Part shown: piece by piece, positions 304-14,725 of the stretch
How the letters are laid out: each line of letters begins with the position of its first letter
Numbering within the stretch: the first letter of the stretch is position 1
Assembly: GCA_035571835.1 (NCBI GenBank)
Contig: DATNBU010000033.1
Location: 1 to 64,000, forward strand
Length of the DNA stretch: 64,000 bases
Source of the DNA: Candidatus Limnocylindrales bacterium
GTDB taxonomy: Bacteria > Desulfobacterota > Binatia > UBA1149 > CAITLU01
Reading direction: 5' to 3'
The notes under the pieces: model-generated
What the model was told of the DNA's origin: nothing
The model's database searches: none
Seen by the model: the letters and a program-made list of their open reading frames with translations, nothing else
Made by a program: the position numbers and the translations under genes

Positions 304-311
<8 letters not shown>
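1..311 (-). CDS. coxC: Cytochrome c oxidase subunit III, partial (3' end lies outside the window)
   Basis: This is the N-terminal ~103 residues of the third membrane subunit of the caa3-type oxidase. The reading begins [20 protein letters not shown], followed by the typical first helix ([20 protein letters not shown]) and a second helix. I chose the GTG at 309-311 because a strong GAGGAGG ribosome-binding site lies 7 nt upstream, inside the end of coxA, and the start overlaps the coxA stop by 8 nt. That overlap points to translational coupling and the same operon. Subunit III has no redox centre and stabilises the oxidase. The C-terminal part and any subunit IV would lie to the left of this window. 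Confidence 0.9.
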
Positions 312-1935
<1,624 letters not shown>

Positions 1936-1958
1936 CGTATGCCCCTCTCCGAGCGCGC

Positions 1959-2999
1959 TCACTGATGAGCCTGCGCGCTCTGCGAAGTGCCGAGAGACTT
2001 GATGTATGCGATCAAGGACATGACCTGTTCCTCTGTGAGCTGGCCACCGAACGTCGGCATCGCCGGCGGGTAGCCTTTAACGACCTTGGCAAGCGGCGTC
2101 AGGATGGACTCGCGAAGATACGCGTCATCCGCAAGCACTTTGTCGCCGGACGCAAGCTCGACCTCGCTGCCCGGAACACCGACCAGGATCGGACCGATGC
2201 CGCCGGGCGTCGTGATGTGGCACGTCGCGCATGCCTTCTCCTGAAACAGCGCGGCCCCCGCCTGCACGGGTGAAGCTGCGGCACCGGCCGCGCCCTGCAC
2301 GACCGATGCGCCGCCCGCCGAGCCCGACGCCGGACCGGCGGTACCCGCGGCGATCTCGACCGGCGACGGATTGCCGGTCGTCAGCCATGCTTCGTAGTCG
2401 GCAGCATCCATGACGGTGACGCTTCCGATCATGCGCGAGTGCTCGGTGCCGCAGTATTCGGCGCAGAAGAGGTGGAACGTTCCGGTCTGGGTCGCCTCGA
2501 ACCACATCGTCGCGTAGCGGCCCGGGACCACGTCGGCCTTCACGCGGAACGCCGGCACGTAGAAGCTGTGGATCACGTCTTCGGAGGCCATCGTCAGCTT
2601 GACCGGGCGGCCGATCGGAACGTGCAGGTTGTTGATCTCGCGCCGGCCGTTCATGTGCTGGATCTTCCACATCCACTGCTTGCCGGTCACGAAGATTTCC
2701 ATCGAGTTGGCCGGAGGAATCTCGAGCTTGAAGTAAAGGCTCGTTCCCCACGCGAAGATGCCCATGACGATGAAGAACGGGATGATCGACCAGACGATCT
2801 CCAGCGCGGTCGAGCCGTGGATATCCGCGCCGACGAGATTCTCGGGCGTGCGCCGGTACTTGATCCCCATGTAGATCATCGCGGCGATGACGGCGAAGGC
2901 GACCGCCCCGCAAAGCAGGACCATCATCACGTAGATCAGGTCCACTTCGGCGGCGTTCGTGGACGCCTGCGGCGGGAACAGCGACAACTGCAAAAACAT
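1959..2999 (-). CDS. coxB: Cytochrome c oxidase subunit II with fused C-terminal cytochrome c domain
   Basis: This subunit accepts electrons and passes them through CuA to CoxA. The protein is 346 residues from the ATG at 2999, which follows GAGGAG with 9 nt spacing. It has two N-terminal membrane helices (about 20-47 and 68-90) and then the cupredoxin domain. CuA ligands are visible as His144, Cys179, Glu181, Cys183, His187 and Met190 ([12 protein letters not shown]). After a Gly/Ala-rich linker (about 215-250) comes a class I cytochrome c domain with CATCH (257-261) and a likely axial Met314 in PPAMPTF. The fused heme domain makes this a caa3 enzyme, which suits direct electron transfer from ACIII encoded upstream in the same operon. 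Confidence 0.96.
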
Positions 3000-3004
3000 T
3001 CTGG

Positions 3005-3868
3005 TCAGCTCCTCGAAGTGGAAGGATGCGTCTCGCGCCATCGGCTGAGGCCGATGAAACCGGCCAGGGAGAGAAGGGTCGCGATGCCACCGAGACGGAC
3101 CAGCGCCAGGATCGAGGCACTGTACTTGCCCGTGGCCGGATCGTAGCGGTAGCAGTAAAGCATCAGCTGCTCGGCGAGCCCGCCGATCTTGCTGTCGGCG
3201 GCCTCGACGAACGCCAGCTTGAGATCGCGGCTCGAGAATTCGACGCCGAAGAAATAGCGCGAAAGCTGGCCGAGGCTGGTCAGCACGTAGATCGACGCGG
3301 CGTGCGCGTACTCGCCGGTGGCCGGCACGAACTTGTAGTGAAAGCCGACGGCGTCGGCGACGGCGCGAATCTGCGCCTCCTCACCGGTCAGGAAATGGAA
3401 CCCGCCTTCGCTTCCCTTGCGTCCGTAGTTCTCGACGTAGGCGGCCTTCTTCTGGCGCGCGAGCTCGGGCGTTTCCTTCGGATTGATGCTGATGACGATC
3501 ACGTCAAACTCGCTCGCCGCGCTGAACGTGAGCGGCCGCAGCGCCTTGATCATGCCGTTGAGCACCAGCGTGCACAGCATCGGGCATTCGAAGTACGCCA
3601 TCGCGAGCACAGCCGGTTTCTTGTCGGGGCCGAAGTAGTCGCCGATGCGGACCTGCTTTCCCTCGTCGTCGACGAACGTCGCGTCCAGCGGCAGGCTCTG
3701 GCCGAGGTGCTGCTCGATGCCGACGCCCTGCAGCGGCCCCGGCGTGACGTTGGCCTGCTGGTCTAGCGAGCCGAGCGGCGCCGGCGCGATCGGAGCGGCG
3801 AACGCCGGCATCGCAACAGCGAGCGCGACGAACGCAACTCCAATCCGTCTGGCGACAGGCGAAAACAT
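3005..3868 (-). CDS. SCO1/SenC-family copper chaperone with extra C-terminal membrane helix
   Basis: SCO proteins deliver copper to, or keep reduced, the CuA site of oxidase subunit II. The 287-residue product has a signal peptide (MFSPVARRIGVAFVALAVAM), a thioredoxin-fold body with the CxxxC copper site Cys95-Cys99 (FECPMLC), and the conserved metal His189 (EYAHAAS). A second hydrophobic stretch near the C-terminus (ILALVRLGGIATLLSLAGFI) would anchor it by its tail, unlike classical SCO1, which is N-terminally anchored. The ATG shares its A with the TGA of the upstream gene. The position directly before coxB fits a dedicated CuA assembly factor. Confidence 0.9.
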   Translation of the reverse strand: MFSPVARRIGVAFVALAVAMPAFAAPIAPAPLGSLDQQANVTPGPLQGVGIEQHLGQSLPLDATFVDDEGKQVRIGDYFGPDKKPAVLAMAYFECPMLCTLVLNGMIKALRPLTFSAASEFDVIVISINPKETPELARQKKAAYVENYGRKGSEGGFHFLTGEEAQIRAVADAVGFHYKFVPATGEYAHAASIYVLTSLGQLSRYFFGVEFSSRDLKLAFVEAADSKIGGLAEQLMLYCYRYDPATGKYSASILALVRLGGIATLLSLAGFIGLSRWRETHPSTSRS

Positions 3869-4473
3869 CAGTGGCCGTGCGCCTCCGCTTCGTGTGCAGC
3901 GCTGCCGTGAGCCGGAGCTTCGGCGTGGCCTCCAGCAGCATGACCTTCGCCGTGCCCGCCTTCGCCCTGAAGATCGCGACTGATCTTCCAGCCGCCGTCC
4001 CAGTCGGGCGCGCCGGAAGCTTCCGCGTGCTGCTCGGGAGCCTGGCCGTGCGGCGACATCGATGCGGGCACCTCGCCCTGGCGTGCCGGCAGGCCCTTGG
4101 CGACCAGCATTTCCATTGCGCGCTCGATCGGCACCTGGACGACGCCGGCTTCCTTGTCGACCCACGCGAGAGTCGACAGGCTCTTCTCTTCTGCCGCACG
4201 AAGCTGCGTAAGATCGTCCTTCGGGCGCAGCTGGAGCCGCGGCTCGGGCGGCTCTTTGGCAGCGTACTTCTCGGCAAGCGGATTGGCAGCAGGAGACGTG
4301 GCCTTCGCACGCTCGGCAAGGCCGAAATAGACGTAGTTCGCCGCGATCGTGAACACGATCGTGAATATCGCAAGGCCGAGGACCGAGAGGGCAACCGGCC
4401 TGGTCGCGACGTCGGTCGGTTCGTACCGGACGGTCTCGTTGCCGTGCGAGGTCGAATGCTCGTGTTCGCTCAT
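3868..4473 (-). CDS. Single-span membrane protein with His-rich tail, ACIII/caa3 operon accessory
   Basis: I do not recognise a named family with certainty. The 201-residue protein has a His-containing N-terminus (MSEHEHSTSHG), one membrane helix (about 28-50, VALSVLGLAIFTIVFTIAAN), and a soluble part with the stretch LAWVDKEAGVVQVPIERAME. A similar 'WVD...G.V.IPI..AM' segment is, from memory, common in proteins beside SCO/ACIII genes. The last ~60 residues are very rich in His, Glu and Gly (HGEGHAAGGHAEAPAHG) and could bind Cu or Zn. Its end overlaps the SCO start and its start overlaps the actF stop, so it is co-translated with both. A role in copper handling or in linking ACIII to the oxidase is inference. 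Confidence 0.75.
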   Translation of the reverse strand: MSEHEHSTSHGNETVRYEPTDVATRPVALSVLGLAIFTIVFTIAANYVYFGLAERAKATSPAANPLAEKYAAKEPPEPRLQLRPKDDLTQLRAAEEKSLSTLAWVDKEAGVVQVPIERAMEMLVAKGLPARQGEVPASMSPHGQAPEQHAEASGAPDWDGGWKISRDLQGEGGHGEGHAAGGHAEAPAHGSAAHEAEAHGH

Positions 4474-5666
4474 GCGTGCTCCAGCTCGGCTTCGACGACC
4501 GGATCGTTGACCGCGATGACAGGATACGCGGTCAGGTTACCGATGTAGCGCCAGATCCACACGCCGCCGATTCCCAGGAACGTGGTCAGGTGCAGCGGAT
4601 GGACGAAGAACGTCGTCGAGAACGACGGCGTGATCCACCAGAAGACGTCCACGTAGCGCATGCACCACAGCAGAGTGGCCACGCCTGCGATCGCCATCGG
4701 CTTGCGCTTGCGCGTACGCGACAGCAGCAGCCCGAACGGCACGACGAAGTGGAAGATGAACAGGAAGAGCGTGAGCCAGTGCCAGCCGTTCTGGTTGCGG
4801 ACCACGTACCACCCGATTTCCTCGGGCAGGTTGGCTCCCCACATGATCAGGAACTGCGAGAGCTGGAAGTAGGTCCAGATCATCACGAATGCCAGGAGCA
4901 GCTTGCCGAGATCGAGGAACCGGTCCGGCGAGATCACGACCGACACCGGCCGGTGATCGGCAATGCGCGCCGACATCAGAATCGCCAGGCACATCGCCGT
5001 CAGGATCTGGCCGCCGGCAAACATCAGCCCGTAGATGTGCGAGAACCAGACGACCTCGATCGACATCGCCCAGTCGATCGCGGCCAGCGACATCGACAGC
5101 AGCCAGATGATGATGCCGATGTGGCTGAGCACGCTGACGCGCCCGGTGCGCGTGGCGCTGCGGCCCTCGACGTCGTCCTGGCGCGACCATGCGGTGAGAC
5201 GCGTAGCCAGCGTGATCCAGATGGCAAAGTAGATGATCGCCCGCACGACGAACATCGTCGGGTTGAGGTACTGCGACTTGTACTGCAGGACGGCGCTCGC
5301 CTGCACCTGGGCCTGGTCGGCCCACGGGTAGATCTGGCTCATCCCGATGACGACGGGGATGAAGAACAGCGCCATCAGCGGCACGTTCATCGCAGCGGCC
5401 TCGGCCGGACGCCGGATCGCGGCGCCCCAGCGGCCGCCGCTCACGTACTGCATCATCAGCAGCACGGTGCTGCCGAGCGCGTTGGCGAGCCAGAAGATGA
5501 ACGCGACGAGCCACGCCTGAAAGAACGCCTTCGGCCAAACCATCGCTCCGACCAGACTTGCGACCAGACCGATCGCGCCGATGCCGAGCGCGGGCATCTG
5601 AATCTTTCGCAGCACGTTGCTCGCCGACAGGTCGAGCTCCTGGCGCGTGAACCTCGACTCACTCAC
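4470..5666 (-). CDS. actF: Alternative complex III membrane subunit ActF
   Basis: This is a polytopic membrane subunit of quinol:electron acceptor oxidoreductase ACIII, homologous to the NrfD/PsrC-type subunit ActC. The product is 398 residues. I chose the GTG at 5666 (VSESRFTRQELDL) because AAGGAGG lies 5-6 nt upstream; an in-frame ATG 18 nt further upstream is weaker. It is hydrophobic nearly throughout, with about ten predicted helices (for example LGIGAIGLVASLVGAMVW and FVMIWTYFQLSQFLIMWG). The YFQLSQFLIMWGANLPEE stretch is typical of ActF. The start overlaps the end of actE by 8 nt, so the two are translationally coupled. Confidence 0.93.
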   Translation of the reverse strand: MSESRFTRQELDLSASNVLRKIQMPALGIGAIGLVASLVGAMVWPKAFFQAWLVAFIFWLANALGSTVLLMMQYVSGGRWGAAIRRPAEAAAMNVPLMALFFIPVVIGMSQIYPWADQAQVQASAVLQYKSQYLNPTMFVVRAIIYFAIWITLATRLTAWSRQDDVEGRSATRTGRVSVLSHIGIIIWLLSMSLAAIDWAMSIEVVWFSHIYGLMFAGGQILTAMCLAILMSARIADHRPVSVVISPDRFLDLGKLLLAFVMIWTYFQLSQFLIMWGANLPEEIGWYVVRNQNGWHWLTLFLFIFHFVVPFGLLLSRTRKRKPMAIAGVATLLWCMRYVDVFWWITPSFSTTFFVHPLHLTTFLGIGGVWIWRYIGNLTAYPVIAVNDPVVEAELEHA

Positions 5667-6336
5667 CGTGGGCCTCCTTGCCATGCTCGGAGCCGTGCTC
5701 GGCGCCTTCGGCAGGAGCGGGCTCGGGCTCGGGCGTGTCGAGCCGCACGCGCTCCTCGGACGTGAGGTCCTGGACGCTCGCATGATGGCTGAGCTGCAGG
5801 GCCTTGATGTATGCCGCGATCGCCCAGCGATCCTCGGCCGCAACCTGAAGCGAATACGACGGCATCACTCCGAATCCGTTGGTCATGACCTGGAAGAAGT
5901 AGCCCGGCACCATCGCGCGCAGGCGCTCGTCGTGGAACGACGGCGGATGCTTGTAGCCGCGCTGTGCGATCATTCCGTTGCCGTCGCCGATGCGCGAGTG
6001 GCACGGCGTGCAGTAGATGTTGAACCGTTCGCGGCCGCGCGCGAGCACGCCGGCCGTCACCGGGAACGGGAACGTGTCGCTGATCGCGTCGCCGTTCTTG
6101 CCGGTGAACAGGAGCTTGTCTTCCTTGAGCTGACCGCGGGCGATCGTTCCGGGTATGAGCTGCCGCGACGCGCGCTGGTCCTTGAAGAACGGACTCTTTT
6201 CGAGCGGCTCGTACTTGGCGGCGTCATGCATGTCCTGGCGGCATGCGGACGCCGACGCGGCCAGAACCAATGCCAGAGCGAAGCGGCCGAGCCCGCGACG
6301 CAGACCTCGGAGGTCCGAAGAGAAAACCTGCTTCAC
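5659..6336 (-). CDS. actE: Alternative complex III monoheme cytochrome c subunit ActE (lipoprotein)
   Basis: This is a 225-residue cytochrome c with one heme site, CTPCH, at about residues 109-113, and a candidate axial Met in GFGVMPSY. The N-terminus has a signal sequence ending in a lipobox-like ASASAC, so it is probably lipid-anchored on the periplasmic face. The tail is rich in Glu, His and Pro (EHGSEHGKEAHGE). In ACIII this subunit is the likely exit point for electrons towards the caa3 oxidase. It starts with GTG overlapping the actD stop by 4 nt and ends overlapping actF, in the order known for act operons. Confidence 0.92.
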   Translation of the reverse strand: MKQVFSSDLRGLRRGLGRFALALVLAASASACRQDMHDAAKYEPLEKSPFFKDQRASRQLIPGTIARGQLKEDKLLFTGKNGDAISDTFPFPVTAGVLARGRERFNIYCTPCHSRIGDGNGMIAQRGYKHPPSFHDERLRAMVPGYFFQVMTNGFGVMPSYSLQVAAEDRWAIAAYIKALQLSHHASVQDLTSEERVRLDTPEPEPAPAEGAEHGSEHGKEAHGE

Positions 6337-6875
6337 GAGTCGACCTCCGACACCGAGGCCGAGCCGAGGCCGGCAAGGAAGGTCTTGACGCTGGAAGCAT
6401 CGAACTTGGGATCGATCGCTTCGATGCAGACGAAGAACCGGTCCTGCGACGCGCGCGCGAAGGCCGGCACGTTCCAGACCGGATGGTACAGCAGCGGAAG
6501 GCCGTTGATCGCGAGCATGCCGAAGACGGCAGTGAGCGAAGCCAGCAGGACCGTGGTTTCGAAAACCGGCGGGATGAACGCCGGCCAGCTGAACAGCGGG
6601 CGGCCGCCGATGTTGACCGGATAGCCGACCATGCTGACCCAGGTTGCCAGCGCGAATCCGCCGAGGCCGCCGAGGATGCCTCCGATCAGTACCATGAGCG
6701 CGACCGGATTCTGCGGAAGCCCGGCCGCCTGGCTGGCTTCGTGGATCGGGAACGGACTGTAGCCGTCGAACTTCGTGTAGCCGGCCGCGCGGATCTTGCG
6801 CAGCGCCGCGACGAACTCGTCTGGCGTCACGAACTCGGCCATCACGCCGTGAATGGTGTGCGTTGGTGCGTGCAT
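6333..6875 (-). CDS. actD: Alternative complex III subunit ActD (DUF3341)
   Basis: The 180-residue protein matches the DUF3341 pattern. A cytoplasmic alpha/beta N-terminal part (FVTPDEFVAALRKIRAAGYT, then DGYSPFPIHE) is followed by two membrane helices (about 57-80 and 100-125) and a short C-terminal domain containing DRFFVCIEA. ActD is a structural membrane subunit of ACIII without cofactors. It begins 2 nt after the actC stop, preceded by a G-rich Shine-Dalgarno run, and overlaps actE by 4 nt. The size and motif agree with orthologues, so I am confident of the family. Confidence 0.93.
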   Translation of the reverse strand: MHAPTHTIHGVMAEFVTPDEFVAALRKIRAAGYTKFDGYSPFPIHEASQAAGLPQNPVALMVLIGGILGGLGGFALATWVSMVGYPVNIGGRPLFSWPAFIPPVFETTVLLASLTAVFGMLAINGLPLLYHPVWNVPAFARASQDRFFVCIEAIDPKFDASSVKTFLAGLGSASVSEVDS

Positions 6876-6876
6876 G

Positions 6877-11288
<4,412 letters not shown>

Positions 11289-11325: not shown

Positions 11326-12003
11326 TCAGCGGTGACACGTCGAGCAGTCGGTGCGCGGCTCGACGTGATATTCTTTGACCAGCTTCGCTCCGATCTCCTG
11401 CTGGCTCATTTTCTCGCCGTTCTCGTCATGCTCGTCCTCGGCCCGCCACGTGGTGTCGAACAGCTTGGCTTTCGGACGGATGGCGCTTGCCGGATTGCGA
11501 TGACAGTCGAGGCACCATCCCATCGTCAGGGGCGCCACCGAATACGTCAGGTTCATCTTCGTGACGTCGCCGTGGCAGCTCGCGCACCCGACGCCTTTGG
11601 CGAGATGGGCCGCGTGATTGAAGTAGACGAAATCGGGAAGATCGTGGACGCGCGTCCACTCGAGCGACTCGCCGGTGCGGAAGCTCGAGCGCACCGGCTC
11701 GAGAATCGGCGCGTCCTTCCACATCTGCGAATGGCAGTTCATGCAGACCTGCGTCGGCGGGATGCCCGCGAACGTCGATTTCTCGACCGACAGGTGGCAG
11801 TAGCGGCAGTCGATCCCGAGCTCGCCGTTGTGGTGCTTGTGGCTGAACTGGACCGGCTGCTCGAGCGCCTCCCGGTTGCGCGTGACGAGCTCCAGCGAGT
11901 TGAACTCGTAGAGCCCCGCGAAGGCGACGCCGCCCAGCAGGCCAACGGTGGCGAGAACTACACGGAAGTAGGTATTGCTGCTCGGCTTGAAGACCTGGGC
12001 CAT
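11326..12003 (-). CDS. actA: Alternative complex III pentaheme cytochrome c subunit ActA
   Basis: The 225-residue protein has an N-terminal membrane anchor (about 14-32) and five CxxCH heme-binding motifs: CRYCH, CMNCH, CASCH, CLDCH and CSTCH. Extra His residues (FSHKHH, FNHAAHL) are likely distal ligands. Five hemes and this length match ActA of characterised ACIII complexes. It is the first gene of the 12-kb operon. The ATG at 12003 has only a weak Shine-Dalgarno (GCGGATCCC), and a perfect inverted repeat lies 29-47 nt upstream. Cymredoxin-type or NapC/NrfH cytochromes are less likely given the neighbours actB-F. Confidence 0.95.
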   Translation of the reverse strand: MAQVFKPSSNTYFRVVLATVGLLGGVAFAGLYEFNSLELVTRNREALEQPVQFSHKHHNGELGIDCRYCHLSVEKSTFAGIPPTQVCMNCHSQMWKDAPILEPVRSSFRTGESLEWTRVHDLPDFVYFNHAAHLAKGVGCASCHGDVTKMNLTYSVAPLTMGWCLDCHRNPASAIRPKAKLFDTTWRAEDEHDENGEKMSQQEIGAKLVKEYHVEPRTDCSTCHR

Positions 12004-12388: not shown

Positions 12389-14725
12389 ATGTCGGTCTTT
12401 ACAGCCAGTGCGGGAAAACCGCGACGCGTCCACGTTTCCGCCGAAAAGCGCGAACCCCGCGGTTTTTCTGGGTTTTTTCTGGGCCGCAGCGCGCTTTTGG
12501 TGGCCTCGGCGATGCTTTTCACCGGATTTGGCGGCCTTTCGGCCACGCAGGCCGCGGCGGCGATCCTCTCTGTTCCGGCCGGCTTCGCGACGATCCAGGC
12601 TGCGGTCAACGCGGCGGGCCCTGGCGATACGGTCGAAGTCTCGACCGGCACGTACCATGAATTCGTCAGCTTTCCGGCCAGCGGCACGGCGGGAAATCCG
12701 ATCACGCTGGCGGCCAAAGCCGGAAACACCCCTGTCATTGATGGAACCGGCCTGGCGACGAGCGACCTCGACGGCCTCGTCTACATCGAGAACCGCTCGT
12801 ACATCACCATCTCCGGCATGGAGATCGCCAACCTTTCGGCCTCGAACCCGAGCCACTTCCCGGCCGGAATCTGGGTGCGCGGCACGTCGCACCACATCCA
12901 GCTGCTCGGCAACACGGTCCATCACATCGAGAACGCCGGCTGCGCGAGCTGCGGGGCCCACGGCATCGCCGTCTACGGAACCAGCGGCACGAGCTCGCTG
13001 CACGACGTGACCATCGACGGCAACGAGGTGCGCAACTGCATCCTCGGCTGGAGCGAGTCGATGGTCGTCAACGGCAACGTCGAAGACTTCACGATCACGA
13101 ACAACGTGGTCCACGACAACAACAACATCGGCATCGTCGCGATCGGGTTCGAAGGCGAGTGCGTCGGCTGCAGCGATGCGCTCGACCAGGCACGCGACGG
13201 CGTCATCGCCGATAACCTCGTCTACAACATCGATTCGCAGGGTAATCCGTCTTACGGAAACGAACGGTCGGCCAACGGCATTTACGTGGACGGCGGCGCG
13301 CGCATCGTGATCGAGCGCAACATCGTGCACGACAGCAACATCGGCATCGAGCTTGCGAGCGAACATGGAGGCAAGGCGACGAGCGACGTCACCGTGCGCA
13401 GCAATTTCGTCTACCGCTCGCAGACGATCGGCATGTCGATCGGCGGCTACGACAAGCAGCGCGGCAGCACCGAGAACTGCCGGATCGTGCACAACACGCT
13501 CTACGACAACGACACCGACCACTCCGGCGGCGGCGAGCTGCTGATGCAGTACGACACGCAGGGCAACGTGATCGAGAACAATATCATCTACGCGAATTCG
13601 CAGAACCAGTTCATCGCCAACGAGTTCACGCTGAATTCGGGCAACACGATCGATCACAACATCTACTACAGCACAGCGGGTGCCGCGGGTTCGTTCTGGG
13701 TCTGGAAGACCACGCCGTACGACGGCTTCGCGGCGTGGAAGGCGGGAAGCGGCAACGATGCGAGCTCGCTGTTCACCGATCCCATGCTGGTGAGCCCGGC
13801 TGCCGGAAACCTGCATGTCAGCGCCGGCTCGCCGGCAATCGGCGCAGCGGTTGCACTCGCCGGCGGCGCGGCCGGCACGCTCGACATCGACAGCACGGCG
13901 CGGGTTTCCGGAGGCGCGGCCGAAATCGGCGCCGACGAGCTCGCATGCGGCAACAACGTGACCGAAGGCGACGAGGAATGCGACGACGGCAATTCGACGA
14001 GCGGCGACGGATGCGACGCCAACTGCACGAACACAGCATGCGGCAACGGCATCGCGACCCTCGGTGAAAGTTGCGACGACGGGAATCTCGCGGCCGGCGA
14101 CTGCTGCAACGCCGCGTGCCAGTTCGAGAGTGCGGGATCGTCGTGCGACGACGGTGAGGTCTGCACGTTCGGTGACGAGTGCAACGGCGCCGGCGTCTGT
14201 GCAGGCACGGCCGAGCTCGAGCCCTCGTGCCTGACGCCGGATCCGGCAACCGGCGGCTCGCGTCTGAAGCTGCGCGGCGAAGGAACTTCGGCCGACCGCC
14301 TTTCGTGGGCGTGGGGCAAAGGAGACGCGATCGACCTCGGTACGCTCGGCGACCCGACGGCGACCGACGACTATGCATTCTGCGTGTTCGTCAATGACGG
14401 CGTGACGCCTTCGCTGCTGATGAGCGCACTCGCGCCTGCCGGCTCATCGTGGGCCTTTACTTCGAGCTCGCTCAAGTTCGCGAGCTCGAGCCTCGCGCCT
14501 GACGGCCTCAAGCAGATCCTCTTCAAGGCCGGCGATGCGGGCCGCGGCAAGATCAAGCTCAAGGGCCAGGGCAGCGCGCTTGGTCTTTCGAGCCTCGGGT
14601 TCGGACCGATGGCGACGGTGTCCGCCGAGCTGCGCAACGTCGCGACCGGCGAGTGCTACGGCGCGACCTATGCGTCGCCGTTCCGCACCGACGAGCCGAC
14701 GCGCTTCGACGACAAGACCGACTGA
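12389..14725 (+). CDS. Secreted right-handed beta-helix protein with Cys-rich repeats and a C-terminal domain
   Basis: The 778-residue protein has a basic N-terminus and a hydrophobic signal (SALLVASAMLFTGFGGL, cleavage probably near ATQAAAA). Residues about 60-515 form a parallel beta-helix of the NosD/pectate-lyase type, with recurring 'NxIxxNxVxxxxxxGI' coils (for example NVIENNIIYAN). About 525-615 is a Cys-rich module with CDDGNSTSGDGCDANC and CDDGNLAAGDCCNAAC, the myxobacterial Cys-rich repeat pattern (DUF4215-like). The last ~155 residues (KLRGEGTSADRLSWAWGKG ... FDDKTD) form a separate domain. GAGGGGG lies 8 nt before the ATG. Catalytic activity is not evident; a cell-surface or polysaccharide-binding role is likely. 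Confidence 0.8.
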   Translation: MSVFTASAGKPRRVHVSAEKREPRGFSGFFLGRSALLVASAMLFTGFGGLSATQAAAAILSVPAGFATIQAAVNAAGPGDTVEVSTGTYHEFVSFPASGTAGNPITLAAKAGNTPVIDGTGLATSDLDGLVYIENRSYITISGMEIANLSASNPSHFPAGIWVRGTSHHIQLLGNTVHHIENAGCASCGAHGIAVYGTSGTSSLHDVTIDGNEVRNCILGWSESMVVNGNVEDFTITNNVVHDNNNIGIVAIGFEGECVGCSDALDQARDGVIADNLVYNIDSQGNPSYGNERSANGIYVDGGARIVIERNIVHDSNIGIELASEHGGKATSDVTVRSNFVYRSQTIGMSIGGYDKQRGSTENCRIVHNTLYDNDTDHSGGGELLMQYDTQGNVIENNIIYANSQNQFIANEFTLNSGNTIDHNIYYSTAGAAGSFWVWKTTPYDGFAAWKAGSGNDASSLFTDPMLVSPAAGNLHVSAGSPAIGAAVALAGGAAGTLDIDSTARVSGGAAEIGADELACGNNVTEGDEECDDGNSTSGDGCDANCTNTACGNGIATLGESCDDGNLAAGDCCNAACQFESAGSSCDDGEVCTFGDECNGAGVCAGTAELEPSCLTPDPATGGSRLKLRGEGTSADRLSWAWGKGDAIDLGTLGDPTATDDYAFCVFVNDGVTPSLLMSALAPAGSSWAFTSSSLKFASSSLAPDGLKQILFKAGDAGRGKIKLKGQGSALGLSSLGFGPMATVSAELRNVATGECYGATYASPFRTDEPTRFDDKTD

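Follow-up and report, generated by a model that had tools for sequence, protein, structure and literature searches.

A probable ActG subunit of alternative complex III with an apparently lineage-specific His-rich tail, encoded between actF and SCO

The window analyzed here, a stretch of 64,000 nucleotides at the beginning of a contig from a bacterium of the class Binatia, carries on its minus strand the genes actA, actB, actC, actD, actE, actF, actG, SCO, cox2, and cox1, in this order (Table 1). The contig begins where the window does, and genes past cox1 lie outside our view. The gene under study, actG, starts with ATG and ends with TGA. As the initial annotation had reported, it overlaps both neighbors: 4 bases (ATGA, 4470 to 4473) belong both to its start and to the end of the actF open reading frame (ORF), and in the sequence TGATG, the actG stop and the SCO start have one base in common (3868). 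Overlaps of such size are frequent in operons, and we attach no special weight to them. That the ORF is a real gene follows from its conservation, since homologues are present in 50 of 145 genomes of the window's class, its own genome included. The start codon of actF is uncertain, with the ORF open to position 5843, and ActF matched no Pfam model at 1e-5. By-eye reading of the SCO translation reveals the motif CPMLC and, toward the C terminus, a hydrophobic stretch. A divergent ORF of 778 aa on the plus strand (12389 to 14725), with matches to right-handed beta-helix and DUF4215 models, adjoins the act operon.

Table 1. Genes of the act-SCO-cox cluster in the window and features of the ActG protein
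Feature	Coordinates	Strand	Basis
cox1	304..1962	-	Pfam COX1, E 4.2e-147
cox2, fused cytochrome c domain, caa3 type	1959..3041	-	Pfam COX2 and cytochrome c domains
SCO1/SenC	3005..3868	-	Pfam PF02630, E 2.6e-11
actG, probable single-TM accessory subunit of ACIII, 201 aa	3868..4473	-	PDB ActG profile match and F-G-SCO synteny
His/Gly/Ala/Glu-rich tail of ActG, residues 133-201, 9 His	3871..4077	-	His count of relatives; pLDDT mostly under 50
Conserved ActG core, residues 75-132, PPEPRLQ ... WVD ... VPIERAM ... GLPAR	4078..4251	-	alignments A1, A2
Predicted ActG membrane helix, about residues 27-47	4333..4395	-	hydropathy; model helix 24-58
actF	4470..5684	-	PDB ActF chains 6lod_F E 5.7e-72, 8k9e_F E 6.9e-57
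actE, monoheme cytochrome c	5659..6336	-	6f0k_E E 4.1e-47, 8k9e_E E 7.9e-43
actD	6333..6875	-	Pfam PF11821 ActD, E 3.8e-61
actC, NrfD-like	6877..8490	-	Pfam NrfD E 1.7e-23 and position
actB	8271..11288	-	8k9e_B and 6lod_B, E printed as 0
actA, multiheme cytochrome c	11326..12003	-	8k9e_A E 3.9e-60

Queried alone, the 201-aa protein matched no Pfam or NCBIfam model at E values up to 1, and a single-sequence search of the PDB returned one weak match, to ActG (E = 0.09); residues 109 to 132 were the first stretch of the window protein to match PDB ActG. The initial annotation had proposed a profile search of the domain. A profile of eight sequences (A1; the window protein and 7 relatives) matched PDB ActG with an E value of 7.9e-7, and one of 23 sequences (A2; the window protein and 22 relatives) did so with an E value of 2.5e-7, ActG being the sole PDB sequence matched by either profile at E values up to 1. 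The matched ActG is chain G of entries 8k9e, 8k9f, 8x2j, and 9ilt, which we take to be the Chloroflexus aurantiacus complex. Chains A, B, E, and F of those same entries are the respective matches of ActA, ActB, ActE, and ActF from the window. The ActG match covers the C-terminal part: the profile-PDB alignments span only the last 45 to 46 residues of ActG and leave its membrane helix outside. Across the eight A1 members, every Pfam or NCBIfam model that matched did so in a single member: DUF6479 (0.00062), FixQ (0.01), and DUF6404 (0.088) in Pfam and PspM (0.01) in NCBIfam. These matches were rejected on that ground.

The window protein thus combines sequence homology to ActG with a single predicted N-terminal helix and a gene position within the act cluster, and it has no heme c or Fe-S motif, because it contains no Cys at all. 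On these grounds, it is very probably ActG, the small single-pass membrane subunit of alternative complex III (ACIII). The initial annotation had regarded the protein as unassigned, a status that does not survive its homology to a named chain of solved ACIII complexes. As a member of an established subunit family it is unremarkable; what sets it apart is a tail specific to its lineage. An apparently unassigned gene is thereby placed in a named family, though without a Pfam or NCBIfam match, and the profiles built here recover ActG in three separately drawn phylum groups.

In the core of the 23 A2 sequences, the invariant or nearly invariant columns hold E, P, L, R, D, W, G, and A; they sit in PPEPRLQ, in the Trp/Asp motif, at a Gly, and in IPI.RAM at P, R, and A. 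This set shows no Cys conservation, and neither His nor Met occupies any invariant or nearly invariant column, Met120 being invariant in the smaller sets A1 and A3 but not in A2. Hydropathy analysis detected one hydrophobic segment, at about residues 27 to 47, which bears out the single transmembrane helix described in the initial annotation. A structure model made with 4 sequences (mean pLDDT, 55.7; pTM, 0.23) places a helix at residues 24 to 58, with low overall confidence, and the core was modeled, likewise with low confidence, as a helix, a beta-hairpin, and a helix. When the 23 sequences were inspected for the positive-inside rule, Lys/Arg counts were alike on both sides of the helix. At least one His precedes the helix in 20 of the 23, with 3 in the window protein and up to 5 in relatives.

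Beyond the 50 genomes of the class, an even draw from the window's phylum recovered ActG in 5 of 198 genomes, all five belonging to the class, while the phylum of locus L002 (Acidobacteriota) had it in 59 of 149 and that of locus L004 (Planctomycetota) in 15 of 149. ActD, used as a marker of ACIII, was found in 99 of the 145 class genomes. It lies 1.5 to 2.1 kb upstream of ActG, on the same contig and strand, in 46 of the 50 class genomes with ActG and on another contig in two (G226 and G325); it was not seen in G316 and G332, where the contigs are only 3.5 and 5.2 kb. A match in G162 (locus L011; E = 1.7e-4) was discarded: it covered residues 77 to 200, mostly low-complexity tail, contained an internal stop, and was gone when profile A2 was used.

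Gene order was examined in 121 regions, one per matching genome (49 in the class, 58 in the phylum of L002, and 14 in that of L004), a set that omits the window's own genome as well as G336 (locus L002) and G338 (locus L004); genes were sorted by best domain match. SCO is the gene directly 3' of ActG in all 121 regions (L042 to L090 and L150 to L221), and ActF lies directly 5' in 118, the exceptions being L050 and L071, with nothing upstream on the contig, and L162, with actE upstream. SCO, cox2, and cox1 follow ActG in order in 112 regions. The initial annotation had put forward co-occurrence with act and SCO genes for examination; all 121 homologues lie within act/cox loci, and the view of the protein as an accessory subunit linked to the ACIII-SCO-caa3 cluster stands. 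In a separate set of four loci, three show the order F-G-SCO, and the fourth (L005, Planctomycetota), which is outside the 121, breaks the pattern: its order is F-G-cox2, its SCO gene lies elsewhere on the other strand, and its ActG, at about 5767 to 6225, is split over two reading frames. The order in L162 is A-B-E-G-SCO-cox2-cox1-C-F, in which actG-SCO-cox resembles the Chloroflexus Cr operon and actC and actF come after cox1.

Act loci that lack ActG offer a comparison. We chose 27 such loci of the class (7 plus 20), a subset of such copies. The fetched stretches reach about 5 to 8 kb to each side, and several end at contig ends, so that an absence of cox or SCO from them carries little weight. 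A cox gene is next after actF, on the same strand, in 16 of the 27 (14 with the order F-2-1 and two with F-1-2), and only one of the 27 stretches contained an SCO match (L097, order F-E-SCO-cox1); neither L097 nor L223, with its irregular order, is counted among the 16. In the 7 F-2-1 loci measured, 168 to 243 bases separate the actF and cox2 domain matches, a distance too short for an ActG or SCO gene, and a 967-base gap in the F-1-2 locus L091 contained no ActG or SCO match. In L225, L227, and L232, ActD was missed by the in-house profile and found by the Pfam model. L091 and L092 are second ACIII clusters of two genomes (G211 and G219), each with actA/actB on the opposite strand, cox after actF, and no ActG or SCO match. 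Linkage of ACIII and caa3 genes is thus independent of ActG. What does seem to go with ActG, judging by gene content, is SCO: the two tend to be present or absent together in these loci, a mildly new observation. The pairing may in part reflect shared ancestry, since the ActG-less and ActG-bearing ACIII differ in lineage. It nevertheless provides a testable lead on the role of ActG and may be the only part of these results of possible interest to specialists.

Past residue 132, the window protein has 9 His in 69 residues, in agreement with the His-rich tail described in the initial annotation. Five or more His past the core were found in none of 119 relatives (0 of 48 from the class and 0 of 71 from the other phyla), and 42 of the 48 and 58 of the 71 have none at all. 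The congener (L046) has 4 His in 43 residues, and L169 and L172, from the Acidobacteriota draw, likewise have 4. The window tail was cut by hand and those of relatives at the profile end, a cut that would shorten the window tail by about five residues and still leave 9 His; L090 and L185, with no domain match covering the end of the core, were excluded from the count. Most of the tail has a pLDDT below 50 in the model and is probably disordered. Because it is confined to the window species and, weakly, the congener, the His-rich tail looks like a recent, lineage-specific add-on, and it cannot explain the family role of ActG. It may bind or buffer metal ions, an activity that would fall outside the shared function of the family. 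Two other products of the operon have His at their C termini: ActE terminates in a His/Glu/Gly stretch, EHGSEHGKEAHGE, and ActC in GGHH, and their last 30 residues hold 3 and 2 His, respectively. Among the ActE proteins of five family members, the last 30 residues hold 4 His in L055 and 0 to 2 in the others.

The tail could also be functionless, a GC-rich low-complexity extension that arose by chance, whatever the identity of the core; we put this at somewhat below an even chance. The nearest relatives differ widely in the length and composition of the tail, and the low model confidence is what disorder would give, but congener G239 retains SGAPDW in the alignment and has a His/Glu/Gly end, though a shorter one, and the window's ActE has a terminal stretch of the same kind. 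Another reading would make the protein a copper-delivery factor or SCO partner for the CuA site of caa3 that uses the His-rich tail, in keeping with the 9 His of the tail, with the pre-helix His of many family members, and with the genomic association, SCO being the next gene in every ActG region and in the fetched stretch of a single ActG-less locus. This reading appears very improbable. Copper chaperones or CuA assembly factors would be expected to show conserved Cys, His, or Met ligands, and the 23 A2 sequences lack a conserved Cys as well as any His or Met that is invariant or close to it, the invariance of Met120 being limited to the smaller sets; not one of the 119 relatives reaches 5 His in its tail; solved ACIII includes an ActG chain; the SCO protein of the window brings a CPMLC motif and a hydrophobic C-terminal stretch of its own; and ActG occurs in a Chloroflexus act cluster for which the excerpts of PMC3150298 list no cox or SCO genes. 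Copper loading, as suggested by the initial annotation, is therefore not supported as the function of the family.

The initial annotation had alternatively proposed a subunit linking the complexes, which would join ACIII to caa3 in a supercomplex. Such a role is compatible with identity as ActG and agrees with the regular succession of SCO, cox2, and cox1 after ActG in 112 of the 121 regions, and an ACIII-caa3 supercomplex of Rhodothermus marinus has been described from a 20-Å map (PMC5928083, in excerpt). An obligatory linker, however, should be found wherever act and cox genes are linked, and 16 of the 27 ActG-less loci have cox next after actF on the same strand, with intervening gaps (168 to 243 bases in seven, 967 bases in L091) that yielded no ActG. 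Conversely, the Cp operon of C. aurantiacus has actG and, in the excerpts of PMC3150298, no cox genes. The obligatory form of the proposal is weakened by both observations, and we consider a linking role unlikely overall.

We favor a role for ActG within ACIII itself. ACIII is a quinol oxidase that passes electrons towards the caa3 oxidase. ActG would be anchored by its N-terminal helix, and its conserved C-terminal core would pack against other Act subunits; carrying no redox cofactor, it could aid the assembly or stability of the complex at its membrane arm. The packing site and the stabilizing role are inferred, as are the disorder of the tail and any part it plays, whereas homology to ActG, gene position, core conservation, and the restricted occurrence of the tail were calculated. 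A more elaborate scenario, which we regard as quite unlikely, starts from ActG and SCO as a conserved pair within ACIII-caa3 operons, both absent between actF and cox in the 16 ActG-less clusters, and would make ActG a docking point on the ACIII side at which copper-loaded caa3 is handed over during supercomplex assembly, with the His tail of this genus as a later, metal-buffering addition.

PDB ActG (8k9e chain G) shares the homologous C-terminal core, Y/L-G/A-Y/W .. G.V.IPI.RAM...GLP.R, with the window protein and belongs to the complex that also supplies the matches of the window neighbors (chains A, B, E, and F). It differs in length (112 aa, compared to 201 aa in the window), in having no counterpart of the 69-residue His-rich tail, and in a two-residue gap after the aromatic motif. 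In C. aurantiacus, according to the excerpts of PMC3150298, actG corresponds to Caur_0627 and Caur_2139; SCO1/SenC and four cox genes come directly after the latter, and the Cr operon is printed with the order actG-SCO-cox.

As far as the excerpts of PMC5928083 go, ActG of R. marinus was identified in the preparation by peptide mass fingerprinting, yet no density was assigned to it in the map, and it is missing from some act clusters and apparently dispensable for catalysis; the sources conflict on whether this organism has the same ActG as C. aurantiacus, PMC5928083 reporting an ActG and PMC9316378, also in excerpt, stating that the protein is absent from R. marinus. Compared by its description in PMC5928083, R. 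marinus ActG resembles the window protein in having one predicted transmembrane helix and no redox cofactor, and its act cluster is followed by an oxidase cluster, as in the window. Act clusters without actG are described for Nitrospirales and Melioribacter in the excerpted parts of PMC12342949 and PMC3534657. In the excerpts of PMC8407424, which do not use the term ActG, the ACIII-A2 caa3 superoperon of Acidobacteriota has act genes followed by caa3 genes, the same arrangement as in the window, and among our 58 Acidobacteriota regions, ActG lies between the act and the SCO-cox genes in 57, L162 being the exception.
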